Below are positions 9,800 through 30,559 of a stretch of DNA of 64,000 bases, in pieces. Within the stretch, counting starts at the first letter, position 1, and every line of letters begins with the position of its first letter. Made by a program: the position numbers and the translations under genes. The stretch is from contig NZ_JAOWPS010000001.1 of the NCBI RefSeq assembly GCF_025753795.1, positions 620,001-684,000 on the forward strand, in the 5' to 3' direction. Under the pieces are notes generated by a model that worked only from the letters and a program-made list of their open reading frames with translations, had not been told where the DNA came from and did no database searches. This stretch comes from Mesorhizobium sp. YC-39 (GTDB lineage: Bacteria; Pseudomonadota; Alphaproteobacteria; Rhizobiales; Rhizobiaceae).

Positions 9800-9820
9800 G
9801 ACTTCCTCCCAGCGCCATTA

Positions 9821-11544: not shown

Positions 11545-14385
11545 ATGCGGCGCCATGAAATCAGGCTTCCAGACAGTTACGCTGGAGGCACCGGAAAGAC
11601 GGTTGCTTCAGACTGGCACAAATCCGCCGTATTTCATCCTTGGCTAATATGTCTTCTCGCCACAACGTCGTTTGCGTGGCTGCCGAACTCTGCGGCCTTC
11701 GCCGCCTGCGTGCTGGTCCCGTCCGCCGGAAATAGCACTTTCGTCTGCGACAGCGGCGATTCAGGCGGCAGCCTTACTGACACTACTGGCGACAACACGC
11801 TGACCTTTCCTGCCGGCGGCACCGGCCAGGTTAGCGGCAGCGTTACCTTTGGCGCCGGCACCGACCGCATCAATATGCAGTCCGGCACCATCACCGGCGC
11901 CGTCGATCAGGGCGACGGCACTGATTTCTTCACCATCGGCGCCGGCACCGTTGCCGGCAACGTCCAGCAGGGCTCTGGCATCGACGATTTCAACATGAGC
12001 GGCGGCCAGATCGGCTCGCTGAACCAGGGCGACGGCCTCGACACCTTCACCATGTCGGCGGGACGCATCGTCGATTTCTTCGACGATGGCGATCATGCGG
12101 TGATGACCGGCGGCCGCATCGGCCGCGTCAACATGAAGCTCGACGACAATTTCTTCGATATGTCGGGCGGTACCATCGACCGCAACCTCGTCACCGGCTT
12201 CGGCAACGATACGATCATCCTTTCCAACGGCACGATCGGTGGCAATATCAGCGTCAGCGGCGGCACCGACAGCGTGACGGTGACCGGCGGCTCGGTCGGC
12301 GGCGATGTGCTGATGAGTTTCGGCACCGACAATTTCGTCTGGAACAATGGCGGCATCATCTACGGTTCTGTGGATCTCGGCGGCGACAACGACACAGCGG
12401 AACTGAGCAATCTGACCAATGCCAATCTTGGCGAGACCAATGCGCTGAACGGCGGTCTCGGCACCGACGCGCTGACCTTCGACAATGTCTCGCTGGACGG
12501 CATCGCCAGGGTCCAGAACTGGGAAAACATCGAGGCCACCAACGACACCGAACTGACGCTGGACGGCAATCTGGTGCTTGGCGACAGCGGCACGGGGACA
12601 GGTTCGCTCAACGTTGACGCGTCGAGCACCTTGTTCGGTGGTGGCTTCAATGCCGCGATCCAGGCCTTCACATCGGGCCAACTGGCTTCGGTGACCAATG
12701 CCGGCCGCATCGACCTGACCAATGGCCCCGCGGGTGCTGCCGATAGCCTGACGATTTCCGGCAATTATGTCGGGTTGGGCGGTCTGCTGCTCATCCAGAC
12801 CGAGCTTGGCGACGACAGCTCCGGCTCCGACAAACTCATCCTGTCGGGCGGAACGGCGTCCGGTTCGACCGGAATTTCCGTTATTAATTTCGGCGGGGCG
12901 GGCGCTTCGACCACGCAGGACGGCATCATGGTCGTCCAGGCGATCGACGGCGCCACGTCAGGCGCCACGACCTTTGCGCTCGACGCGCCGGTCGCGGCCG
13001 GCGCCTTCGAATACTACCTGTTCAAGGGCGGCGTCAGCGCCGGCAGTGAGGAGAACTGGTACCTGCGCTCGACGCTGACGACGCCTGCGCCGCCTGCGCC
13101 TGCGCCGCCGCAGCTCGAACCTACCGATCCACCGCCACCGGTGCCGCCGGAGACCGCGCCGCCGCCGCCGCAGTCGGAGCTGCCGCCGACGCCGCCACCG
13201 ACCGAGGGCGACATCAACAATCCGCCCGTCGATCCGACGCCGCCGGTACAGATCGCTGATCCGGAGCCCGAGGGACCGCCGCCGGCGCCGCCGAGCCCGC
13301 CGGCGGAACCGCCGCCACCGCCGCCGCCGGTGCCAGTCGAAGCGCCCGTTCTTCCGGTGCCAACGCTGCCTGGCCCGCCACCGGTTCAGCCGGCGCCGCC
13401 GACGCCGGGAGCGACGCCGGTGGAGGCAGCCGAGATCCAGCTCTATCGCATCGAGGTGCCGGTCTATTCGGCCGTGCCGCCCATTGCCCAGCATCTGGCC
13501 ATGGCAACGCTTGGCACCTTCCACGAGCGGCGCGGTGAGCAGAGCCTGCTGTCGAACACAGAATTGTCGCCCGTCTGGGGCCGCATCTTCGGACAGGACG
13601 CTGATATGGCATGGTCGGGGACGGTGTCGCCGTCCTTCGACGGCACGTTGTTCGGCATCCAGGCCGGCTTCGACGCGTTCGGCTGGGAAAGCGCGTCAGG
13701 CATCAACCGCGCCGGACTGTTCATTGCCTATGGCCGCATGAATGGCGACGTGCGCGGCCAGGCGCTGGGATGGAACAATCTGTCCGTCGGCGGGATCGAT
13801 CTCGACGGCACCAGCGTCGGCGGCTACTGGACCCATATCGGTCCGAGCGGCTGGTATCTGGACGGTGTCGTGATGGGGACTTTCTTCGGCGGCACGGCGA
13901 ACTCGTCCCGCGACATCGGCATCGATGTCGATGGAACAGGCATCACCGCTTCGCTCGAAGGCGGCTATCCCTTTGCACTGGCCGAGGGCTGGACGCTCGA
14001 ACCGCAGGCGCAACTGGTCTGGCAGCATTTGTCGCTCGACGGTACGCAGGATAGTTTCTCGTCGATCTCCTTCGACCTCGACGACAGCGTCAACGTCCGG
14101 CTGGGGCTGCGGCTGCAAGGCGAGACCGTCATGAACGGCATGGCGCTGCAGCCTTACCTCAAGGCCAATCTCTGGCACGATTTCGGCGGCACCGACCACG
14201 TCAACTTCGACGGCACCGATATCTCGACCGAGGGCGAGTCTACATCGTTCGAGTTCGGCGGCGGCCTCGTCGCCCAAGTGACGGACAAGGTCAGCATCTT
14301 CGCCACCGGCGACTACACCACCAATCTGGGCGGCGACAAGCGGCGCATCCTCGAGGGCAATCTCGGCTTCAGCGTCAAATGGTGA
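11545..14385 (+). CDS. Large autotransporter (type Va secretion) with repetitive passenger
   Basis: 946 residues from the ATG at 11545, which has CGGGGAG eight bases upstream; a longer frame from 11383 is less likely. A long signal peptide of about 53 residues ends at NSAAFA. The passenger has about nine units of 19-20 residues (pattern GTD-F-M-GG-I-G-V-QG) between 11839 and 12400, expected to form a beta-helix. A Pro-rich linker of roughly 120 residues follows (13080-13440). The C-terminal 280 residues form the outer-membrane barrel (PVWGRIFGQDADMAWSG onward), ending in NLGFSVKW with the usual final aromatic. It probably displays or releases an adhesin-like passenger; the ligand is unknown. 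No catalytic motif was seen in the passenger. Confidence 0.9.
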   Translation: MRRHEIRLPDSYAGGTGKTVASDWHKSAVFHPWLICLLATTSFAWLPNSAAFAACVLVPSAGNSTFVCDSGDSGGSLTDTTGDNTLTFPAGGTGQVSGSVTFGAGTDRINMQSGTITGAVDQGDGTDFFTIGAGTVAGNVQQGSGIDDFNMSGGQIGSLNQGDGLDTFTMSAGRIVDFFDDGDHAVMTGGRIGRVNMKLDDNFFDMSGGTIDRNLVTGFGNDTIILSNGTIGGNISVSGGTDSVTVTGGSVGGDVLMSFGTDNFVWNNGGIIYGSVDLGGDNDTAELSNLTNANLGETNALNGGLGTDALTFDNVSLDGIARVQNWENIEATNDTELTLDGNLVLGDSGTGTGSLNVDASSTLFGGGFNAAIQAFTSGQLASVTNAGRIDLTNGPAGAADSLTISGNYVGLGGLLLIQTELGDDSSGSDKLILSGGTASGSTGISVINFGGAGASTTQDGIMVVQAIDGATSGATTFALDAPVAAGAFEYYLFKGGVSAGSEENWYLRSTLTTPAPPAPAPPQLEPTDPPPPVPPETAPPPPQSELPPTPPPTEGDINNPPVDPTPPVQIADPEPEGPPPAPPSPPAEPPPPPPPVPVEAPVLPVPTLPGPPPVQPAPPTPGATPVEAAEIQLYRIEVPVYSAVPPIAQHLAMATLGTFHERRGEQSLLSNTELSPVWGRIFGQDADMAWSGTVSPSFDGTLFGIQAGFDAFGWESASGINRAGLFIAYGRMNGDVRGQALGWNNLSVGGIDLDGTSVGGYWTHIGPSGWYLDGVVMGTFFGGTANSSRDIGIDVDGTGITASLEGGYPFALAEGWTLEPQAQLVWQHLSLDGTQDSFSSISFDLDDSVNVRLGLRLQGETVMNGMALQPYLKANLWHDFGGTDHVNFDGTDISTEGESTSFEFGGGLVAQVTDKVSIFATGDYTTNLGGDKRRILEGNLGFSVKW

Positions 14386-14391
14386 GGCAGG

Positions 14392-14438
14392 CCATGATCC
14401 CGAAAAGTGGGAACCGGTTTTCGGATAAGATCATGGTC
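14392..14438. repeat. Palindromic intergenic repeat, copy 2
   Basis: Reads CCATGATCCCGAAAAGTGGG ... and closes with TCGGATAAGATCATGG, the reverse-orientation equivalent of the element at 1142-1190. It lies six bases after the autotransporter stop, between it and the convergent lysE-type gene, where it could act as a two-way mRNA 3' hairpin. Confidence 0.75.
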
Positions 14439-14454
14439 AAGCAAGAAGATTGCC

Positions 14455-15078
14455 TCAATTGCCCGAGCGCATCGCCACCGTGGCGATGCCGGCGCCGACC
14501 AGCAGCGTGCCGCCGGTGCGGTTGAAGATGCGGATCGCCCGGGGATTGCGCACGAAATTGCGCGCCCTTGCCGCGATCAGCGCGTAGCCGAAGGCATTGG
14601 CGAAGGCGAGCGCCAGGAAGGTCGTCTCGAAGATCAGCATCTGCGTCCAGAAATCGGCATGCCGGTCGAGGAATTGCGGCAGGAAGGCGACGAAGAAGGT
14701 GATGCTCTTGGGGTTGAGCGCGGTGACCAGCCAGGCATGCGCCATCATCTTGGCCGACGACACCGCATCGGTGCGCGGTTCGGCCCGGAGCGCGCCGCCG
14801 GCGCGGAACAGCTTGATGCCGAGATAGATCAGATAGAAGGCGCCGATCACCTTCAGCACCGTGAACACGGTGGCCGAGGCCGCTAGCAGAGCGCCGATGC
14901 CCAGCATCGACAGCGTCATCGCGGTGAAGTCGCCAAGCGCCACGCCGACCGCCATTGGCAGTGCGGTGCGCCAGCCCTGGCCGAGCGCATAAGACACGAC
15001 CAGAAGGATGGTCGGGCCTGGAATGACGAGAAGGATGGTCGAGGCGGCGGCAAAGGCGGCCCAGTTTTCGAAGGACAT
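14455..15078 (-). CDS. LysE/RhtB family exporter
   Basis: A 207-residue inner-membrane protein with about six hydrophobic segments. Family markers are LLVIPGPTILLVVSYALGQG at the first membrane segment and LNPKSITFFVAFLPQF. The family exports amino acids and derivatives such as lysine, threonine or homoserine lactone; the substrate cannot be told. The start at 15078 follows AAGGAGACAAAT and gives the standard MSFENWAAF N-terminus; the longer frame from 15195 adds an unrelated basic stretch. Confidence 0.9.
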   Translation of the reverse strand: MSFENWAAFAAASTILLVIPGPTILLVVSYALGQGWRTALPMAVGVALGDFTAMTLSMLGIGALLAASATVFTVLKVIGAFYLIYLGIKLFRAGGALRAEPRTDAVSSAKMMAHAWLVTALNPKSITFFVAFLPQFLDRHADFWTQMLIFETTFLALAFANAFGYALIAARARNFVRNPRAIRIFNRTGGTLLVGAGIATVAMRSGN

Positions 15079-15306
15079 ATTTGTCTCCTTGAGCGCAAAG
15101 AAAAGGATAAATCCTTGGGCGCGCGAGGATGTAAAGAGGCAATGTCGAAAATCTTCGGCATGCCCGGTTCGGCGTGTCGGGACATGCAACAGCAAACAGC
15201 GTTAAGGCCAGCCAGCACGCCTTCACGCTTTTTCAACCATGATTGGTGAAAATGCCTGCTATCCGGCCGGACCGTGTTTCCCGCCGATAGCGTAGGGTTT
15301 GGGTAG

Positions 15307-21278: not shown

Positions 21279-21947
21279 TCAGCGGGGGACCGCCTTTTCC
21301 CGCTCGCCCTCATCAAACGTGTCCTTCATCGCCCGCAGGATGATGACGGCCGAGGCCGCGCCCGGATCCATGTGGCCAAGCGATCGTTCCCCCAGCCTCG
21401 CCGCCCTGCCGCGGGCGGCGACCATCGATCGTGTCGAATTCGCCCCGGCCTCGGCGGCCGCCAATATGCTGTTCCACATCTCCGCACCTCCGGCAGCGCG
21501 GGCGCGCGCGTTGACAGCCGCTTCCGTTGCGGGGACCCAGGCGTCGAGCATCGTCTTGTCGCCGCGCTGGCCCTTGCCGCGCTCCTTGATGCCAGTCGTC
21601 ATCGCCTCGACGATCGCCGCCTGGTCGGCGAGTGACAGGCATTCGTCCTTTTTAAGGGCTTGCGCAGCCCTGCGGAACGCGGTCGCATAGAGTGGCCCAG
21701 TGGATGCGCCGACGGCATCGAGAAAGGCCGACGCGGCAACAGCGAAAACCTCAGACGGCAGCGTTTCGTCGAGGTTGAGTTTGGCGAGTTCGGCATTCAC
21801 CGCCATGAAGCCGAGCGACATGGTGATGCCATGGTCGGCGTCGCCGATGGCGCCGTCCAGGTCCGAGAGGTGGTCCTTTCCCGCCTCGATCGCAATGGAT
21901 ATGCGATAGAACATCCTGCTCAGGCGTCGCGCCGCATTGTCCGACAT
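21279..21947 (-). CDS. dhaL: Dihydroxyacetone kinase L subunit (second copy, paired with the fusion)
   Basis: 222 residues of the ATP-binding DhaL fold. The Mg-nucleotide motif is DGAIGDADHGITMS; TGPLYATAFRR and RSMVAARGRAARLGERSLGHMDPGA are family signatures. It follows the SorC-DhaK fusion after 62 bases with ribosome site CGGGAGGAACACC, so it most likely supplies the ATP-binding half for that DhaK domain. No DhaM phosphotransferase subunit is present, so ATP rather than PEP is the expected donor. It ends the locus. Confidence 0.92.
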   Translation of the reverse strand: MSDNAARRLSRMFYRISIAIEAGKDHLSDLDGAIGDADHGITMSLGFMAVNAELAKLNLDETLPSEVFAVAASAFLDAVGASTGPLYATAFRRAAQALKKDECLSLADQAAIVEAMTTGIKERGKGQRGDKTMLDAWVPATEAAVNARARAAGGAEMWNSILAAAEAGANSTRSMVAARGRAARLGERSLGHMDPGAASAVIILRAMKDTFDEGEREKAVPR

Positions 21948-22009: not shown

Positions 22010-24100
22010 TCAGCCGATCCGCAGCACGGCCGTATCGCAGGGATGATGCAACAGTTCCATCAACTCGTTGTCGAGATGCAGGACCGATATGGATGCACCG
22101 ACCATGTCGAGCGAGGTGCAGTAATGCCCCACCCAGTTCGCTTCTATCTTGATATCCTTGGCGCTCAGCCGCTGCTCGACACGCCTGAACAGAATGTAGA
22201 GTTCCATCAGTGGCGTTGCGCCGAATGAGTTGACCAGCACCGCAACACGATCTCCCGGCGCCGCCTGCATCTCCGAAAAGATGCGGTCCATCACCCGGTC
22301 GGTGATCTCGTCGGCAGTCATCATCTTGTCGCGGATGACACCGCGCTCTCCATGGATGCCCATGCCGATCTCGATATCGTCCGGGCCGATCTCGAAATTG
22401 TGGCGGCGGGTCTGCGGCAACGAGCAAGGCTCCAGCGCGACGCCCATTGTGAAGGTTCGTGCATTGGCCTTGCGGGTCGCGGCCTCGCAGGCGTCGAGCG
22501 ACAATCCGCGGTCGCAGGCCGCCCCGGCGACCTTGAACATGAAGAAGTTGCCGGCAACGCCGCGCCGGCCTTCCCGGTCCTCGAGCGGAGACGAGGCGAT
22601 ATCGTCCGTCGTCACCACCGTGCGAACCTCGATATTGTGTTCAGCCGCCATTTCGGCCGCCATGTCGAAATTCATCACGTCGCCGGCATAATTGCCGTAG
22701 ACGAAGAGCACGCCTTGGCCGCCCGATGCGGCATTGGCGCACTGAAGGATCGTGCCGGGAGGCGGTGACGAAAAGATGTTGCCGACGGCAACGGCGTCGG
22801 CAAGTCCTTTTCCGACATAGCCGAGAAAGCACGGCTCATGCCCGGTGCCGCCTCCGATCACAAGCCCGACCTTGCCCGGCCTCGGCCCGGTGCGGGCGAC
22901 GAGGGCGCGATGCGAACCTTTGATCGGCCTGAGATAGGCGGCATGGGCCTTCACCACGCCGTCGAGCATCTCCTCGACGACGTCATTGGGGTCATTGAGG
23001 AATTTCTTGATATGGGTGCGGAAGTTGCTGGGCAGGGTCGCGCGGTGGTCGATCTTCGGGCGTTGCGAGAGCTTCTGGTCAAGCTCCGTCACGCCGTCGG
23101 CATTGAGGATGCCGCGACCGGTCGCGGCGTCGGTGATGAGCACATTGACATAGCCGCCGCGCAGCGCCGCAAGGATTGCCGGAACCTTGTCGAAACCGCC
23201 GGCAACCGCGATGCGCAGGCCGATGGCTCTCAGCATGTCGAGCGAGATGCCGATGGTGCGGTCGTCGAGCGGGCCGGCCACCGGATGGCCTTGACCGTCG
23301 ATGAAGCGGCCGGCGACCACGCCCACCGCATTCCTGGCGAGATATTGCTGCAGCGAAACCGATTCGAAGAAGCCGCTGGTATGGATCGTCGAATTGGGCC
23401 GCAGCGACGAGATCCCGAACAGCGCCTTGTTGGCTTTGGCAAGCGCATCGAACTGGCTTTCGATCAGCGTCTCGCGCAACAGCATGTCGCGTATCTCGGC
23501 CGTGGAAACGACCGCCGGCGCCGTGATGTTGACCAGCCTTGCACTGATCGCGCCGGCCATGGCTGATGCGCAGAGTTCCGGTGTATAGGCAAAGTTGGCG
23601 GCGGTTCCGCCGGTGGCCTGCACGACGGTGACGTCCTGAAGGCCGGGCACCGAAGCCTGCTCCGCGATCGCCAGCACCGTTCGCCCCCAGGCGACGGCGA
23701 GTGTGTCACCGGATTTCAGCAGCTTGGCAAGCGCCTGCGCCGCCGCTCCGCCAAGGCGATCGATCAGCGGCCGCGTATTGTCGTCGCTCGGCACGACCAG
23801 ACAGTCATGCAGGCCGAAATGCCGTTTGAGTTCCTGCGCGATCGACAGCGAGCTCAGCCGTGACGGCTCAAGCGAGATGTTGACGATGCCGCGGGCGCGG
23901 GCATCGGCCAGATAGCTGTTCACTGTCGCCCGCGAGATGCCCATGATCTCGGCGATGTCGCCTTGCGTCATGTGATCTTCATAGTAGAGCCAGCAGGCCC
24001 AGACATACGGGTCGTCGCCGTAGCGCAGCGGAATGGGTTCGGTGCCGGCCTCGGCCCGCGCTGTTCCATTCTTCCGCGCCGATAATGTCTTGACCGTCAT
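22010..24100 (-). CDS. Fusion: SorC-family sugar-responsive regulator + DhaK kinase subunit
   Basis: 696 residues. The first about 330 form a SorC-type regulator: winged HTH with YYEDHMTQGDIAEIMGISRA, then a sugar-binding domain with VAWGRTVLAIAEQ, VVQATGGTAANF and IAVAGGFDKVPAILAALRGG. The rest is a complete DhaK: FLNDPNDVVEEMLDGVVKAH, IGGGTGHEPCFLGYVGKGLADA, YGNYAGDVMNFDMAAEMA, and GMGIHGERGV holding the His that forms the covalent hemiaminal with the substrate in DhaK. Both halves look intact. I took the ATG at 24100; a TTG at 24148 would add 16 residues. There is no frameshift at the junction. It probably senses a sugar or sugar phosphate, controls the locus and phosphorylates the same class of ketose. 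Confidence 0.92.
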   Translation of the reverse strand: MTVKTLSARKNGTARAEAGTEPIPLRYGDDPYVWACWLYYEDHMTQGDIAEIMGISRATVNSYLADARARGIVNISLEPSRLSSLSIAQELKRHFGLHDCLVVPSDDNTRPLIDRLGGAAAQALAKLLKSGDTLAVAWGRTVLAIAEQASVPGLQDVTVVQATGGTAANFAYTPELCASAMAGAISARLVNITAPAVVSTAEIRDMLLRETLIESQFDALAKANKALFGISSLRPNSTIHTSGFFESVSLQQYLARNAVGVVAGRFIDGQGHPVAGPLDDRTIGISLDMLRAIGLRIAVAGGFDKVPAILAALRGGYVNVLITDAATGRGILNADGVTELDQKLSQRPKIDHRATLPSNFRTHIKKFLNDPNDVVEEMLDGVVKAHAAYLRPIKGSHRALVARTGPRPGKVGLVIGGGTGHEPCFLGYVGKGLADAVAVGNIFSSPPPGTILQCANAASGGQGVLFVYGNYAGDVMNFDMAAEMAAEHNIEVRTVVTTDDIASSPLEDREGRRGVAGNFFMFKVAGAACDRGLSLDACEAATRKANARTFTMGVALEPCSLPQTRRHNFEIGPDDIEIGMGIHGERGVIRDKMMTADEITDRVMDRIFSEMQAAPGDRVAVLVNSFGATPLMELYILFRRVEQRLSAKDIKIEANWVGHYCTSLDMVGASISVLHLDNELMELLHHPCDTAVLRIG

Positions 24101-24191
24101 GCTGCCCGGTTTCCCCGAATCCAAGATCGATCGCCAAGATGAGCGCAAATGGAAGAACTCTCAATCTTGGTCGGATTCCATCCTATTGTTT

Positions 24192-24260
24192 GAGCATGAT
24201 CTTTTCCGAAAACCGGCTTCCACTTTTTGCTTTGCTGACCTTCGGTTCGGGATCATGCTC
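24192..24260. repeat. Palindromic intergenic repeat, copy 3 (with internal insertion)
   Basis: Begins GAGCATGATCTTTTCCGAAA and ends GATCATGCTC, like the element at 1142-1190, but has about 18 extra bases (CTTTGCTGACCTTCGGTT) before the closing arm. It lies between dhaL and the SorC-DhaK gene. Confidence 0.7.
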
Positions 24261-24266
24261 CAACGC

Positions 24267-24323: not shown

Positions 24324-24986
24324 TCAGCGACCGGCGGTCGCCGATATCAGCAGTTTCTGCTTGGCGCCGAGCGCCAGGGCTTTCAGGATCAGCGCACAGG
24401 ATGTGGCCCCGGCATCGAGGACGCCGACCGAGCGTTCGCCGAGGCGGCTGGCGCGGCCGATCCTGGCCACGAGATCCCTGGTGCTGTCGCGGCCTTTTTC
24501 AGCCGCGACGACGAGCGCATCCAGGGCTTCCGGGAACGGCTTGCCGTCGGTATTGGCGGCGTCGAAGGCCTCAATGGCCGGGACGAGTGTGTCGAGCAGC
24601 GTCTTGTCGCCGACCTTGGCCGAGCCGATCGACTGGATGCCGTCGAGACCATTGCTGAGCATCGCGCTGAATGTCCGGGCGTCGATGGCAGAGGATTTCT
24701 CGATCGTCTCCGCGAATTGCGTGAACATGACGCCGTAGAGCGGACCCATCGAGCCGCCGATCTCGGTCATCAGCACGGTGCCCAGCGTGTCGAAGGCCTC
24801 GGCCAGCGACATGTCGTTGCCTCGGATCCTGTCCGCCGCCATGCCAAAACCCTTGGCCATGTTGACGCCGTGGTCGCCGTCGCCGATCTTGCCGTCGATC
24901 TCGCTCAGATACGCCCGGTTTTCGATGATCCGGTCGGCGATCGAAAGCACGATGTCGCCAGCGGAAGCGTTTTCAAACTGCTGCAT
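24324..24986 (-). CDS. dhaL: Dihydroxyacetone kinase L subunit (first copy)
   Basis: 220 residues from the ATG at 24986 (ribosome site AGGAAACAGGCGA); a TTG at 25016 would overlap dhaK. The Mg-ADP motif is DGKIGDGDHGVNMAKG, followed by MTEIGGSMGPLYG and RIGRASRLGERSVGVLDAGATS. It starts 11 bases after dhaK and forms with it an ATP-dependent ketose kinase. It differs clearly from the second DhaL of this locus (GDGDHG against GDADHG), so the two are paralogues rather than a recent duplication. Confidence 0.93.
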   Translation of the reverse strand: MQQFENASAGDIVLSIADRIIENRAYLSEIDGKIGDGDHGVNMAKGFGMAADRIRGNDMSLAEAFDTLGTVLMTEIGGSMGPLYGVMFTQFAETIEKSSAIDARTFSAMLSNGLDGIQSIGSAKVGDKTLLDTLVPAIEAFDAANTDGKPFPEALDALVVAAEKGRDSTRDLVARIGRASRLGERSVGVLDAGATSCALILKALALGAKQKLLISATAGR

Positions 24987-24997
24987 TCGCCTGTTTC

Positions 24998-25990
24998 CTA
25001 AAGCCTTGCCGGACAATCGACAGCCACATCCAGCAGCCGTTTCAGCTCGGCGTCGAGCGCCATCACCGTGAGCGTCGCGCCGACCATTTCCAGCGAGGTG
25101 AAATAGTTGCCGATATAGGTCTTGTGGATGGTCAAGCCGCGTCCGGCGATCTCCTGTTCGAACGTGTCGTTGAGGATGTAGAGCTCGTTGACCGGCGTGG
25201 CGCCGAGGCCGGACACCAGCACCGCAACTTCGGTTCCAGCCGCCAGATCGTGATCATCGAGAACGATCTTGACCATGTCCCGCGCGATCTCGGCGGCGGG
25301 CTTCAGCGGCTCGACCCGCACCCCAGGTTCGCCGTGATGACCGATGCCGACTTCCATCGTGCCCGGCTCGATCAGGAAATTGGGATGTCCGACCGCCGGC
25401 AGCGTGCAGGGGCCGAGGCCGACGCCGATCGAACGGCAATTGTCGATAGCCCTTTGCGCCACCGCCTGTACGGCCTCGAGGCCAGCGCCTTCCCCGGCCA
25501 GGGCGCCGGCGCATTTCCACATGAAGATCTCGCCGGCGACGCCCCGGCGCTTTTCTCGCTCGTCCGGTCCTGCCGAGCAGACATCGTCATTGGCGACGAC
25601 GGTTGCGATCTCGATGCCTTCCTTGGCGGCGAGCTTGATGGCCATTTTCACGTTCATGTTGTCGCCGGCATAATTGCCATAGAGGCAAACGACGCCCCTG
25701 CCGCCATTAGCCTCCCGGGCAGCGTCGAGGAAGCTCTTTGCCGTCGGTGACGAGAAGAGCTCGCCGACCGCGACCGCGTCCAGCATGTTGCGGCCGGTGT
25801 AGCCGATGAAGGCCGGCTCATGGCCGGAACCGCCGCCGGTGATCACGCCGACCTTGCCGCCGACCGGCGCATGGCGGGCAGCGATGACGCGGGGATTGCT
25901 GGCGAGCCTGACGATGTCGGCATGCGCCTTGACGAAGCCCCTGACCGTATCCTCGACGACCTCGTCGGGATTGTTGATGAACCGCTGCAT
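24998..25990 (-). CDS. dhaK: Dihydroxyacetone kinase K subunit
   Basis: 330 residues, the normal length of a free-standing DhaK. MQRFINNPDEVVEDTVRGF is the typical start, with GGAGCAACA before the ATG at 25990. GGGSGHEPAFIGYTGRNMLDA, YGNYAGDNMNVKMAIKLA and GIGHHGEPGV (substrate-binding His) are all present. It phosphorylates dihydroxyacetone or a related ketose such as erythrulose once paired with DhaL. It lies between the SDR gene and dhaL in the operon driven from about 30.5 kb. Confidence 0.94.
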   Translation of the reverse strand: MQRFINNPDEVVEDTVRGFVKAHADIVRLASNPRVIAARHAPVGGKVGVITGGGSGHEPAFIGYTGRNMLDAVAVGELFSSPTAKSFLDAAREANGGRGVVCLYGNYAGDNMNVKMAIKLAAKEGIEIATVVANDDVCSAGPDEREKRRGVAGEIFMWKCAGALAGEGAGLEAVQAVAQRAIDNCRSIGVGLGPCTLPAVGHPNFLIEPGTMEVGIGHHGEPGVRVEPLKPAAEIARDMVKIVLDDHDLAAGTEVAVLVSGLGATPVNELYILNDTFEQEIAGRGLTIHKTYIGNYFTSLEMVGATLTVMALDAELKRLLDVAVDCPARL

Positions 25991-26012
25991 TGTTGCTCCA
26001 ATCTTGCGCCGG

Positions 26013-26783
26013 TCAGACAATGGTGTAGCCGCCATCGACCAGCAGGTCGGCGCCGTTGATCATGTCGGCGCCGTTCGATGCCAGGAACACGGCGGCGGCG
26101 GCGATCTCCTGCGGGAAGGCAAAGCGGCCGGTCGGAATGCGCTGCTTCAGCGCCTCGCCGCGCGGGTTGTCCCAGGCCTTTCGGCCGAGATCGGTCAAGA
26201 CCACGGTCGGCGAAATCGTATTGACCGTGATGCCGTGCTTGCCCCATTCGGCGGCGAGCGTCTTGGACAGGCCGATGACGCCGAATTTCGAGGCGCAATA
26301 GGCGACGTGCTGGTCGATCGCGACGGTGCCTGCCTGCGAGGCCATGTTGATGATCTTGCCGCCCTTGCCGGCTTTGATCATGGCGCGTCCAGCAGCCTGG
26401 GAGACCAGAAACGTTCCCTTGAGATTGATATCGATGGTCTTGTCCCAGGCATCGAGGCTGAGTTCCTCGGCGGGAGCAAGAACGGCGACGCCGGCGCTGT
26501 TGACGACGATGTCGATATGGCCGAAGGCCGCTTGCGCCGCCGCGAACACGGCGTCCACGGATCGTGGATCGGACACGTCGCAGACGAAGGATTTCGCGCC
26601 GTTGCCGAGCTCGTCGGCCTTCGACCGCGCAACCGATTCATTGATATCGATCACCCCGACAGTGGCGCCCTTCGTGGCGAATGCCGATGCTATGGCGCTG
26701 CCGATGCCAGAGGCGCCGCCGGTGACCAGGGCGACTTTGCCGCCCAGCGAAAAATTGAGATCAACCTGGATTGAATCAGTCAT
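26013..26783 (-). CDS. SDR-family polyol dehydrogenase
   Basis: 256 residues of a classical short-chain dehydrogenase: TGGASGIGSAIA (cofactor loop), Asp at the end of strand 2 (VGVIDINES, favouring NAD), NSAG, MASQAG with the catalytic Ser region, and YCASKFG with catalytic Tyr and Lys. The ATG at 26783 follows GAGAAGAGAGCC. Its place between an importer and a ketose kinase suggests it oxidises the imported polyol to the ketose that DhaKL phosphorylates. Overall it resembles threitol/arabitol-type dehydrogenases, but the exact substrate is inference. Confidence 0.88.
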   Translation of the reverse strand: MTDSIQVDLNFSLGGKVALVTGGASGIGSAIASAFATKGATVGVIDINESVARSKADELGNGAKSFVCDVSDPRSVDAVFAAAQAAFGHIDIVVNSAGVAVLAPAEELSLDAWDKTIDINLKGTFLVSQAAGRAMIKAGKGGKIINMASQAGTVAIDQHVAYCASKFGVIGLSKTLAAEWGKHGITVNTISPTVVLTDLGRKAWDNPRGEALKQRIPTGRFAFPQEIAAAAVFLASNGADMINGADLLVDGGYTIV

Positions 26784-26840
26784 GGCTCTCTTCTCTGTTG
26801 GAACGTGGGATGCGCCAGGAGAGCCCACCCCACGACCGGA

Positions 26841-27827
26841 TCACTTGCGCGTCGCCAGGAGTTGGTCGACGTTTTCCGCCGTCACTGGCGTCCACGGCAC
26901 ATTGTAGATCTTCTCCTTGCCGTCTTTCCACGGCATGTCCTTGTAGGTTGCCCAGATGTCGGACTGCGGCTTGTAGTCACCCTTCTTGGCCGCGAAGATG
27001 GCAAGGTCGAGCGCGCCTTGAGCCTGGGCGCGCGCGTCCTGCAGGATCGAGGTCATCTCACCGGCCTTGACGGCGTGAAGCGCATCGGTGATGCCGTCGA
27101 TGCCGGCAATGGTGAAGCTCTTCAGGTCGAGGCCGGCGGCCTTGATCGCCTCGATGGCGCCAAGGGCCATTTCGTCGTTCTGGCCGATCACGCCATTGAT
27201 CTGGTTCGGGTGGGCGGTGAGCCAGTTTTCCATCAGCGTCTGGGCTTCGGCGCGCGACCAGTTTGCGGTCTGGTCCTCGAGGATCTTGACATCCGGGCAC
27301 TCGGCAAGCGCCTTCTTGTTGCCTTCGAGACGGGAAATCTGCGCCGACTGGCCGATCGGCCCTTCGAGGATGACCACATTGCCCTTGCAGCCGATCTTGT
27401 CGAGCACGGTCTTGGCCTCCATGTAGCCCGAGATCGTGTCGTCGGAGCCGACATAGGAGGTCAGCAGATCGGAATTGACGCGGGTGTTCGAGCCGATGAC
27501 CGGAATGCCGGCATCGGCCGCCGTCTGCACCGCCGCGGCGCCGGCGTCGACGTCGATCGGAGCGAAGATGATAGCGTTGTATTTCTGCGTCGCCATCGTT
27601 TTGAACTGATCCTGCTGGACCAGGGCGTCATAGCGGCCGTCGAAGACCGTCAGTTCGACTTCACCGCTCTTGACGGCCGGATGCTCCTGGAGCGCTGCCG
27701 CCCAGATCTGCATGAACTCGGCGTTCAACCCGTAAGGTGCCGCGCCGATCTTGATCTTCTCCTGCGCCATGGCCGACGAGGCCAGCAGAGCGGTCGCGGA
27801 TGCGAGCGCAATCATCAATCTTTTCAT
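26841..27827 (-). CDS. CUT2-type sugar ABC transporter substrate-binding protein
   Basis: 328 residues beginning MKRLMIALASATALLASSAMAQ, a clear signal peptide, after the strong ribosome site GGAGGTAACGAA. The mature protein has the ribose-binding fold: YNAIIFAPIDVDAGAAAVQTA, GIPVIGSNTRVNSD, GVIGQNDEMALGAIEAIKAAG and IAGIDGITDALHAV. It should bind a small sugar or polyol in the periplasm. It follows the permease gene in the operon; the longer frame from 27956 is rejected because it hides the signal peptide. Confidence 0.93.
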   Translation of the reverse strand: MKRLMIALASATALLASSAMAQEKIKIGAAPYGLNAEFMQIWAAALQEHPAVKSGEVELTVFDGRYDALVQQDQFKTMATQKYNAIIFAPIDVDAGAAAVQTAADAGIPVIGSNTRVNSDLLTSYVGSDDTISGYMEAKTVLDKIGCKGNVVILEGPIGQSAQISRLEGNKKALAECPDVKILEDQTANWSRAEAQTLMENWLTAHPNQINGVIGQNDEMALGAIEAIKAAGLDLKSFTIAGIDGITDALHAVKAGEMTSILQDARAQAQGALDLAIFAAKKGDYKPQSDIWATYKDMPWKDGKEKIYNVPWTPVTAENVDQLLATRK

Positions 27828-27927
27828 TTCGTTACCTCCACTTGAGCGAGCGACCGACATGGTTCGCCATTCACGGACGCGCGTGTTGCAGGTCCGGTAC
27901 CGGAAGGAGGCCTTTGGGTCCGATGCC

Positions 27928-28932
27928 CTAGGCCCCGTAGTTTCTTTTCTGATCAAGCATCACGGCGCCAACGATGAGCGCGCCCTTGAGGACTTGCTGG
28001 TAGTAGGATTGGATCCCCATCAGATCGAGGCCGTTGTTCATGACGCCGATGATCAGCGCGCCGATCAGCGTGCCGGTCACCCGGCCGACGCCTCCAGAAA
28101 GGCTGGTTCCGCCGATCACCACCGCCGCGATCGCGTCCAGCTCATAGGCAATGCCGGCCTGGGGCAGGGCGGAACCGGTGCGGGCGCTGAGCAGCATTCC
28201 GGCGAGACCGGCAAGACTGCCGGAGATGACATAGACGGCGAACTGCGTGCGGGTGATGTTGATGCCCGAGGTCCTGGCCGCGTGAGGGTTGCCGCCGACG
28301 GCATAGATGTAGCGGCCAAAGCGGGTCCGGTTGAGGATCCACCAGGAGACGGCGAACACGACTGCGAGAATGACGACCGGCGCGGGTATGCCAAGGATGT
28401 TGCCTGTGCCGATCCAGCGGAAGGCCGGCGTCAGTGCGGGGACGGGACGGCCTCCGCCATAGATGAGGGTCATTCCGCGTGCCGCCGACAGCATGCCCAG
28501 CGTCGCCACGAAGGCCGGCACCGAAAACCGCGACACGATCACGCCGGAAACGGCGCCGCAGGCAATGCCGACCAGCAGGCCGATACCAAGGCCGAGGGCG
28601 ACCGGATAGGGCGCGCCGGAAATTCCCGCGGTCGCGGAACTGGTCACGAAGCTCGCGCTGACGATGCCGGCAAGTGCTACGACGGAGCCGACCGAGAGAT
28701 CGATGCCGCGCGTCAGGATGACGAAAGTCATGCCGATGGCGAGAACGCCGTTGATCGAGGTCTGCAGCAGCACGTTCGAGATGTTGCCGGCCGTCAGGAA
28801 GAACTCGTTGGAGACTGACAGAACCGCCACCAGGATCACGAAGGCAAGGAAGATGCCGTATTCCTGAATCAACAGCCGGCGCTGCTCCGAACCGAACCAG
28901 CCGTTTGCACTCTTGTTGTCGCCAACCGACAT
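27928..28932 (-). CDS. CUT2-type sugar ABC transporter permease
   Basis: About 334 residues and some ten membrane segments, like RbsC. ILTRGIDLSVGSVVALAGI and AVVIGGTSLSGGVGRVTGTLIGALIIGVMNNGL are signature segments. The ATG at 28932 follows AGAGGAATCAGTG; an ATG at 28950 is an alternative that adds six residues. It lies between the ATPase and the binding protein and completes the importer. Confidence 0.92.
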   Translation of the reverse strand: MSVGDNKSANGWFGSEQRRLLIQEYGIFLAFVILVAVLSVSNEFFLTAGNISNVLLQTSINGVLAIGMTFVILTRGIDLSVGSVVALAGIVSASFVTSSATAGISGAPYPVALGLGIGLLVGIACGAVSGVIVSRFSVPAFVATLGMLSAARGMTLIYGGGRPVPALTPAFRWIGTGNILGIPAPVVILAVVFAVSWWILNRTRFGRYIYAVGGNPHAARTSGINITRTQFAVYVISGSLAGLAGMLLSARTGSALPQAGIAYELDAIAAVVIGGTSLSGGVGRVTGTLIGALIIGVMNNGLDLMGIQSYYQQVLKGALIVGAVMLDQKRNYGA

Positions 28933-28972
28933 CACTGATTCCTCTGCCATTGAGCGAACACCCTTGCCCTCT

Positions 28973-30451
28973 TCAGGTTGATAGATGGACGAGCGACTGG
29001 GCATCCGTTTCCTCCCGGCTGAAGGTTCCGGCACTTCTGCCGGCCCGCATCACCATGATCCGGTCCGACATGCCGAGAACCTCGTCGATTTCCGACGAGA
29101 TCATCACCACCGTGCCGCCGGAGGAGGCGAAGTCGCTGATGATCCGGTAGATTTCACGCTTGGCGCCGACATCGACACCGCGGGTCGGCTCGTCCAGAAG
29201 CAGCACCTTCGGATTGCGAAGGAACCATTTGCCGAGCACCACCTTCTGCTGGTTGCCGCCTGAAAGGCCGGAAACCGGCATCGTGTCGCGGGCCGCCTTG
29301 ATCTGGAATTTTTCCCGCATGCCGCGGCTTGCGTCCGCCTCCCGCGCCCGATCCATGGCGAAGGCGGGGCTCATTTCAGGCAGGCTCGCCATGCAGATGT
29401 TCGCGCGCACGGAATCGGCGAGATTGAGACCGGTCAGCTTGCGGTCTTCGGTGACCAGCGCCAGCCCGTGCGCCATGGCATCCGCCGGCTTTGCAATGCT
29501 GACCTCGGTGCCGTCGACCTTGATGCTTCCCGCCGAAGGCCTGTCGAGCCCGAACAGGCAGTTGAAGATCTCCGTCCGACCGGCTCCCATCAGGCCGTAA
29601 ATGCCGAAAATCTCTCCCTTGCGCACCGAAAACGAGATGTCCTCGATTTTGTTCGGGCAAGAGAGCGCGGCAACCTCGATGCCTGGTTGCGATGTCGGCG
29701 TGTTGGTCTTGGCGAATTCCTCCGACAGTTCGCGGCCGACGATCATGCGGATCAGGCCGGGTCGATCGATGTCAGCAAGCGCGCCGCTGCCGACATAGGC
29801 GCCGTCGCGAAAGACCGTGTAGGAATCGGCGATCTGGAAGATCTCCGACAGGCGGTGGGAAACATAGACGATGCCGCGCCCTTGCGCCTGCAAGCGGCGG
29901 ATAGCGGCGAACAGATGCTGTGCTTCCCGCTCGCCGATCGCCGAGGTCGGCTCATCCATGAAGATGACCTCGGCGTCGTGGCTGAGCGCCTTGGCGATCT
30001 CGACGAGCTGCATCTGTGCGACCGAGAGGTTCATCATGTACTGCGTGGCGCGAATATCGAATTCGAGATCGTCCAGCAGTCTTTGCGCGGACCGGTTCAT
30101 CGCGCGGAAATCGATGCCGCCGAACCGCGCCTTGGGCTCGCGGCCGAGATAGATGTTCTCGGCAACCGTCATGTGGGGAACGGGGCTGAGTTCCTGCTCG
30201 ATGATGGCGATGCCTGAGGCCAGTGCATCGGCTGGGTTTGCGAATTCCACCTCCTTGCCGCGGCGGCGGATCGAGCCGGCATCGCGGCTGAAGATGCCCA
30301 TCAGTATCTTGAGAAAGGTCGATTTGCCGGCGCCGTTGCCGCCGCAGAGCGCGTGAACCGTGCCGGCGCGAAGTTGAAAGCGGCCGTCGCGCAAGGCGGC
30401 GACGCCACCAAAGGACTTTTTCAGCCCTTCAACCTCGAGCAAAAGCTCCAC
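28973..30451 (-). CDS. CUT2-type sugar ABC transporter ATP-binding protein (two cassettes)
   Basis: 492 residues. The first cassette has Walker A GGNGAGKST and LSVAQMQLVEIAKAL; the second has a degenerate Walker A (GLMGAGRTEIF), LSGGNQQKVVLGKWF and LLLDEPTRGVDVGAK, the normal RbsA/XylG asymmetry. I chose the GTG at 30451 because GGGAGGAGAGAAG sits just before it; upstream ATG (30520) and TTG (30559) starts fall inside the predicted promoter and have no ribosome site. It is first in the eight-gene locus. Confidence 0.92.
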   Translation of the reverse strand: MELLLEVEGLKKSFGGVAALRDGRFQLRAGTVHALCGGNGAGKSTFLKILMGIFSRDAGSIRRRGKEVEFANPADALASGIAIIEQELSPVPHMTVAENIYLGREPKARFGGIDFRAMNRSAQRLLDDLEFDIRATQYMMNLSVAQMQLVEIAKALSHDAEVIFMDEPTSAIGEREAQHLFAAIRRLQAQGRGIVYVSHRLSEIFQIADSYTVFRDGAYVGSGALADIDRPGLIRMIVGRELSEEFAKTNTPTSQPGIEVAALSCPNKIEDISFSVRKGEIFGIYGLMGAGRTEIFNCLFGLDRPSAGSIKVDGTEVSIAKPADAMAHGLALVTEDRKLTGLNLADSVRANICMASLPEMSPAFAMDRAREADASRGMREKFQIKAARDTMPVSGLSGGNQQKVVLGKWFLRNPKVLLLDEPTRGVDVGAKREIYRIISDFASSGGTVVMISSEIDEVLGMSDRIMVMRAGRSAGTFSREETDAQSLVHLST

Positions 30452-30525: not shown

Positions 30526-30559
30526 TGACAATAGTCAATTTAAGGTCGACAAATGTCAA
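30526..30559 (-). promoter_or_regulatory. Promoter with two overlapping operator-like repeats for the dha/ABC locus
   Basis: On the minus strand a -35 TTGACA (30559-30554), a 17-base spacer and a -10 GACTAT (30536-30531) form a good sigma-70-type promoter. On the plus strand the near-identical 12-mers GACAATAGTCAA (30527-30538) and GACAAATGTCAA (30548-30559), each containing an inverted repeat and 21 bases apart, cover the -10 and -35. This is the layout of repressor sites; the SorC half of the 22010-24100 protein is the best candidate binder. Confidence 0.65.

Follow-up and report, generated by a model that had tools for sequence, protein, structure and literature searches.

A SorC-type regulator joined to a dihydroxyacetone kinase subunit: a candidate trigger enzyme in Mesorhizobium and related Alphaproteobacteria

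In the stretch of Mesorhizobium sp. YC-39 DNA analysed here (64,000 nucleotides; the window), an uninterrupted frame on the minus strand, running from ATG 24100 to a stop at 22010, encodes a 696-aa protein in which a SorC-type transcriptional regulator continues into a DhaK subunit, raising the question of whether one chain serves both as repressor and as kinase subunit and how the two roles might be coupled. Trigger enzymes such as NadR, BirA and PutA unite repressor and enzyme in one chain, catalysing a step and repressing its genes; to our knowledge, none of the three joins SorC to DhaK or acts as a ketose kinase dependent on a second subunit. In the DhaR-DhaK-DhaL system of E. coli and the DhaQ-DhaS system of L. 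lactis, a Dha kinase subunit or its paralogue takes part in operon control. The regulators DhaR and DhaS are separate proteins of another family, whereas the regulator of the fusion is covalently attached and has its own effector domain.

A SorC regulator and a DhaK subunit in one frame

The frame remains stop-free over 712 codons to TTG 24148 (22010–24148, minus strand), and in this 712-aa version Pfam places the sugar-binding domain PF04198 at residues 100–349 (E 3.3e-63; 213.7 bits, cut-off 27), Dak1 PF02733 at residues 397–707 (E 2.2e-117) and general HTH models at about residues 54–90. Counted from ATG 24100, the protein (22010–24100; ORF and Pfam) comprises a SorC-type HTH DNA-binding domain (residues 31–75; 23876–24010), assigned from Pfam, alignment and model, a SorC effector-binding domain (residues 79–334; 23099–23866), assigned from Pfam, conservation and fold match, a variable linker of 24–32 aa (23012–23098), placed by model and alignment, and a DhaK domain (residues 364–696; 22013–23011), assigned from Pfam, catalytic residues and fold match, all on the minus strand.

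An AlphaFold2 model made with 37 aligned fusions (mean pLDDT 80.0, pTM 0.68) contained two confident parts. The modelled DhaK half matched the DhaK chain of the E. coli DhaK-DhaL complex (3pnl) with a Z score of 45.3 and an rmsd of 1.9 over 329 residues, its structural matches including DhaQ (2iu4, Z 41.4) and DhaR-bound DhaK (4lrx, Z 45.2), while the SorC half matched K. pneumoniae SorC (2w48) with a Z score of 34.8 and an rmsd of 2.1 over 256 residues, and DeoR (4oqp) with a Z score of 32.9. The linker fell below pLDDT 50 at residues 342–362; being variable and modelled with low confidence, it gives no sign of a rigid coupling path, and crosstalk between the halves may therefore be absent.

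The fused frame is genuine and no sequencing artefact. The preliminary description had read the sequence as a complete regulator and a complete DhaK, with its substrate-binding His intact, in a single chain open at the junction, a reading borne out by the Pfam domains, the open frame and the invariant residues, and 62 distinct full-length fusions read through the junction without a break. H421, D474 and H583 (437, 490 and 599 counted from TTG 24148) are invariant in 65 of 65 aligned rows, comprising the 62 fusions and three unfused pairs, and in the computed alignment they fall on residues that we take to be H56, D109 and H218 of E. coli DhaK, with their catalytic roles. In the effector domain, W138, G139, R140, G164, R281, G302, K305 and D324 are invariant in all 37 fusions compared and, by analogy with the family, would line the effector pocket. 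The GIHGERG motif that the earlier reading had singled out is present and its His is invariant, but its Arg is not a fixed feature, being Pro in 54 of the 65 rows and Arg in 11.

Alignments to B. subtilis DeoR, E. coli LsrR and K. pneumoniae SorC span nearly the whole SorC half, and these proteins resemble the fusion in sequence and fold, with an HTH and a sugar-binding effector domain. However, they end after the effector domain, whereas the fusion continues into a whole DhaK. DeoR also has a Schiff-base lysine, which we take to be Lys141, whereas the fusion has Thr at the aligned position.

The 62 fusions were found among the fetched loci and belong to Alphaproteobacteria wherever the record names a lineage; three loci (L040, L072 and L108) hold unfused SorC-DhaK tandem pairs. 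A full-length, stop-free fusion occurred in 22 of 397 genomes of the order sample, a count that leaves aside one genome with internal stops (G103) and one with the frame split over two contigs (G310), in 1 of 385 genomes of the class sample, namely the window's own, and in 5 of 398 genomes of the phylum sample, all of the same class. The named-genome search covered the best 80 of 579 related stretches, giving 79 loci, and in the plasmid collection 109 records contained a single match spanning 80% or more of the query.

Given that the product name in RefSeq and plasmid records is 'bifunctional sugar-binding transcriptional regulator/dihydroxyacetone kinase subunit DhaK', the architecture is already named by annotation and the fusion is not a new type of protein, as had been recognised at the outset. 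A functional description of it, whether of function, operator, distribution or genomes in which it is the sole kinase, was not found among the matches listed in a search of open-licence literature, again in line with the earlier view, and passages of PMC5017801, PMC12780249 and PMC4777399 contained nothing bearing on the fusion. As far as could be seen, a SorC-ketose kinase chain is uncharacterised.

The kinase half and its operon

The fusion is the seventh of eight genes lying in the same orientation on the minus strand. From upstream to downstream, these encode an ABC ATPase (28973–30451; ORF and Pfam), whose likely start is GTG 30451 behind GGGAGGAG and whose frame is open to 30559; an ABC permease of the PF02653 type (27928–29034; profile matches); a sugar/polyol ABC transporter substrate-binding protein (26841–27956; Pfam and structure-sequence match), with 4rsm as its nearest solved chain; an SDR dehydrogenase of the GolD/DthD family (26013–26828; NF005309, 395.6 bits, cut-off 286); a separate DhaK of a lineage distinct from the fused one (DhaK-b, 24998–26035; Pfam and tree); a second DhaL (DhaL-b, 24324–25016; profile matches); the fusion; and, directly downstream of it, DhaL-a (21279–21947; TIGR02365, 181.9 bits, cut-off 138.3), with an intact D-x4-D-x-DHG motif. 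Between DhaL-b and the fusion lies an intergenic stretch (24190–24262; GAGCATGATCTTTTCCGAAAACCGG...CGGGATCATGCTC), probably a dispersed repeat since a similar translation ends the frame 14375–15226.

The same gene order recurs in the closest relatives (L005–L015, L021 and L036). Elsewhere, a DhaL-a-like gene precedes the fusion instead of following it (L019, L023 and L031), the DhaK/DhaL/fusion block lies beside a different ABC transporter on the opposite strand (S. meliloti L084 and L085, and L024 and L029), or a separate DhaK of the same kind as the fused one precedes the fusion (L017, L018, L041, L080 and L083); two of these last (L018 and L041) have only one DhaL within about 22 kb, upstream with the separate DhaK and shared. 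Five further loci (L022, L026, L027, L028 and L164) have the fusion with one DhaL but lack a second DhaK in the vicinity, and the transporter beside it is of another type, annotated only for L022. A DhaL adjoins the fusion in nearly all loci examined for synteny, a point that the first reading of the locus had proposed to check, and the DhaL motif D-x4-D-x-DHG is kept at all 86 and all 31 places in the loci up to L085. From this arrangement, DhaL-a is the likely partner of the fused DhaK.

No DhaM/PTS gene was found among the eight operon genes scanned, so ATP is presumed to be the phosphoryl donor. The substrate is probably a small, threitol/erythrulose-like ketose derived from a polyol, a guess from the dehydrogenase and the transporter, 4rsm being what we take to be a D-threitol protein; a literature search for a clue to the sugar or polyol returned nothing on the locus. 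In another Mesorhizobium locus (L064:6746–16177), a separate DhaK-DhaL pair, whose DhaK is about 66% identical to the fused DhaK, is flanked by mtnK/mtnA, which encode the kinase and the isomerase of methylthioribose, and by a gene for a class II fructose-bisphosphate aldolase; two unnamed frames also lie in this interval.

The fused DhaK shares its fold, its catalytic residues and a neighbouring DhaL with E. coli DhaK (3pnl/1oi2), but it carries an N-terminal repressor and scores 372.6 bits against the NCBIfam DhaK equivalog TIGR02363, below the cut-off of 406.25, and is therefore filed as a Dak1-domain kinase subunit rather than as a member of that equivalog. Against the DhaQ equivalog TIGR02362 it reaches 203.2 bits (cut-off 413.25). 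Across 37 fusions, the DhaK halves are on average more alike than the SorC halves (mean pairwise identity 0.652 against 0.605), as also holds in 547 of 666 individual pairs.

Dak1 places were counted in 39 genome rows (23 plus 16), two of which, G349 and G779, share an identical place and so probably represent a single genome, G349 apparently being the L027 genome; the 16 rows were chosen rather than sampled, from fusion and tandem loci including those with no second DhaK nearby, and others such as L005–L015 stand outside the count. In four distinct genomes, of Aurantimonas, Aureimonas and Jiella (L022, L026, L027 and L028), the fusion is the only Dak1 match found and adjoins the only Dak2 match. 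One genome with an unfused pair (G103) also has a single Dak1, and the remaining counted genomes have 2 to 8. Draft assemblies could hide further DhaK copies, but this would need to happen four times. As the sole DhaK beside the sole DhaL, the fusion should be a working kinase subunit in these four genomes, where any DhaK-DhaL kinase of the cell would have to use it as its K subunit. In the window genome, which has four Dak1 places (the fusion and three others) and five Dak2 places, redundancy is possible and the fused DhaK need not be the working kinase.

A predicted bipartite operator

Passages of PMC11229326 describe SorC repressors as tetramers on two half-operators, their effector domain as a phosphosugar-binding domain, and CggR as released by DHAP (KD 3.34 uM) and FBP; by our own count from the operators printed there, the half-site centres are 21 bp apart for DeoR and 20 bp apart for CggR. 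Ahead of the operon in the window lie two palindromes, TTGACATTTGTCGA-N7-TTGACTATTGTCA (30526–30559, minus strand), that form a predicted bipartite operator with half-sites 21 bp apart, as in the B. subtilis DeoR operator, so that at the level of sequence pattern the site has the SorC-family trait of two half-sites about 20–21 bp apart. With up to three mismatches allowed, the bipartite pattern occurs once in the 7.36-Mb genome, at 30526–30558 of the window, and a reversed control gives no match. A single half-site is weak evidence, with four matches in the window at up to two mismatches, one of them exact, against 0.95 expected.

TTGACA-NN-TGTCG-N occurs upstream of the ATPase gene in the window and in 13 rhizobial relatives, and from these 14 sites a weight matrix was built for scanning further loci. 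Of 29 loci outside the matrix, many of them related and hence not fully independent, 22 had the best partner of the top site exactly 21 bp away, with a mean partner score of +2.3 at this offset and −16.4 to −27.4 at 36 others; for 10 loci the search range was hand-set to the region before the operon. The 29 leave out two loci scanned earlier, L020, which gave no pair in the pair search, and L085, a near copy of L084; short-flank fusion loci (L087–L107, L165 and L166) lay outside the scan, and two such genomes were scanned with longer flanks as L163 and L164. Among the seven loci with the best partner elsewhere, the miss in L022 is due to a decoy top site, its pair at 9818/9839 also being 21 bp apart. 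A stricter pair test in 30 loci gave 21 bp as the best spacing in 14, another spacing in 7 and no pair in 9. Of 300 dinucleotide shuffles, 9 gave any pair and none a 21-bp best pair.

In loci such as L026–L029, L033, L034, L039, L163 and L164, the pair immediately precedes the DhaK/DhaL/SorC block; in L017, L018, L041, L080 and L083 it sits about 7 kb ahead of the block, and there we take it to head a long operon. Of 30 control loci fetched for a separate DhaK (L042–L071), 10 showed a pair at 19 bp, one showed a pair at 40 bp and the other 19 showed none; the 19-bp pairs count as roughly one event because the Mesorhizobium sites are nearly identical. These 19-bp palindrome pairs (L045:6686–6719 and nine other Mesorhizobium loci) apparently precede an ABC transporter unrelated to the fusion and are perhaps the operator of another regulator. 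Among ten loci with a related unfused SorC, eight (L145–L149, L151, L152 and L156), whose SorC is 39–46% identical to the fused SorC half, have a palindrome pair of the same kind at 20 bp, seven just before an ABC ATPase gene and one before the SorC gene, and two (L150 and L157) have no pair.

The left half-site contains TTGACA, a perfect −35 hexamer, so part of the pattern is itself a promoter element. The idea that the site is just a shared promoter was rejected: neither TGTCG/A nor the second palindrome belongs to the promoter consensus, and a promoter scan found no sigma-70-like promoter over threshold at the site, the −10 element being weak.

Possible coupling of the two halves

Taking these observations together, we propose that the fusion acts as a trigger enzyme with two functions. 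Together with a DhaL, probably DhaL-a, its DhaK half would form the ketose-binding subunit of a presumably ATP-dependent ketose kinase, while its SorC half, probably as a dimer of dimers, would bind the two palindromes over the operon promoter and repress the ABC-transporter/dehydrogenase/DhaK/DhaL operon that encodes it. Lacking a phosphoketose, the fusion would stay on the promoter; when a ketose enters, basal fusion-DhaL or DhaK-b/DhaL-b would phosphorylate it, and the product would bind the SorC effector domain and open the operon, the enzyme and the sensor of the same step then residing on one chain. That both halves work and that the protein represses its own operon we consider probable. 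Whether the inducer is the phosphoketose that the kinase makes is a closer call, and we put this at slightly less than an even chance by analogy with known SorC regulators. DHAP is the product of dihydroxyacetone kinase. A tighter form of coupling, in which DhaL docks and phosphorylation takes place on the operator, so that the tethered SorC domain receives the phosphoketose directly and the operon responds to flux through the repressor rather than to the bulk metabolite, is speculative and in our judgement unlikely.

The readings that compete with this proposal are not mutually exclusive. The DhaK half might serve chiefly to sense a ligand or to coregulate, in the manner of DhaK and DhaL with E. 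coli DhaR and of DhaQ with L. lactis DhaS. Site occupancy or DhaL docking, as the preliminary description had suggested, would then change DNA binding while a neighbouring DhaK-DhaL pair does the catalysis. The second such pair in the window operon and in many relatives would leave the fused DhaK free for sensing, and DhaQ and DhaR-bound DhaK are among its structural matches; nevertheless, the catalytic residues are invariant, four genomes were found with no other DhaK, the DhaQ model falls far below its cut-off, and a conserved effector domain is already present in the SorC half, making this reading quite unlikely in our view. Because that domain is retained and known SorC regulators are induced by phosphosugars, product sensing by the SorC domain would suffice without coregulation and explains as much as a DhaR-like scheme. 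It is very improbable that the SorC half no longer regulates and survives as a relic on a kinase subunit: its annotation does rest on similarity, but the HTH is the best-conserved part of the 37 fusions (mean column conservation 0.805; DhaK, 0.741; effector domain, 0.703), and the 21-bp-spaced palindrome pair accompanies the fusion in most loci of the 29-locus test.

A normal repressor and a normal kinase subunit might also simply be operon neighbours that became joined and are tethered without functional coupling, a reading compatible with the core of our proposal. In its favour, SorC and DhaK also occur as unfused tandem pairs, the linker varies and is poorly modelled, and each half looks complete by itself; yet the fusion has persisted in many alphaproteobacterial genera while the transporter and the gene order changed around it, which points to an advantage of the joint chain without proving one, and we regard an uncoupled tether as somewhat unlikely. 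In a SorC tree, all 43 fused SorC halves form one clade (support 99/98) next to the three unfused tandem SorCs. In the free DhaK tree the fusions are scattered, but the AU test leaves a single clade of fused DhaKs unrejected (p-AU 0.671), the tree so constrained being 3.2 log units better than the free one, while a clade uniting the fused DhaKs with two unfused tandem DhaKs is rejected (p 0.016, AU test). Two independent fusions had been considered when fusions of Aurantimonas and Jiella fell among separate DhaKs in the first DhaK tree, an idea dropped because of this AU result and the single SorC clade, and one event joining neighbouring genes is the simplest history.

If the trigger-enzyme proposal holds, the fusion would be a compact natural feedback device, with enzyme subunit, metabolite sensor and repressor in one chain, and its lineage includes many plant-associated bacteria. 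With four single-DhaK genomes and a single predicted operator in the window genome, the question of coupling can be addressed using just one protein, its one partner and a single DNA site. Other joined frames occur in the loci analysed: in two of them (L153:8550–11291 and L154:6138–8864) a distant SorC (27%) adjoins one frame carrying both DhaK and DhaL (611 and 589 aa), and in L163 (6539–8299) DhaK-b and DhaL-b form a single 638-aa frame beside the SorC-DhaK fusion.
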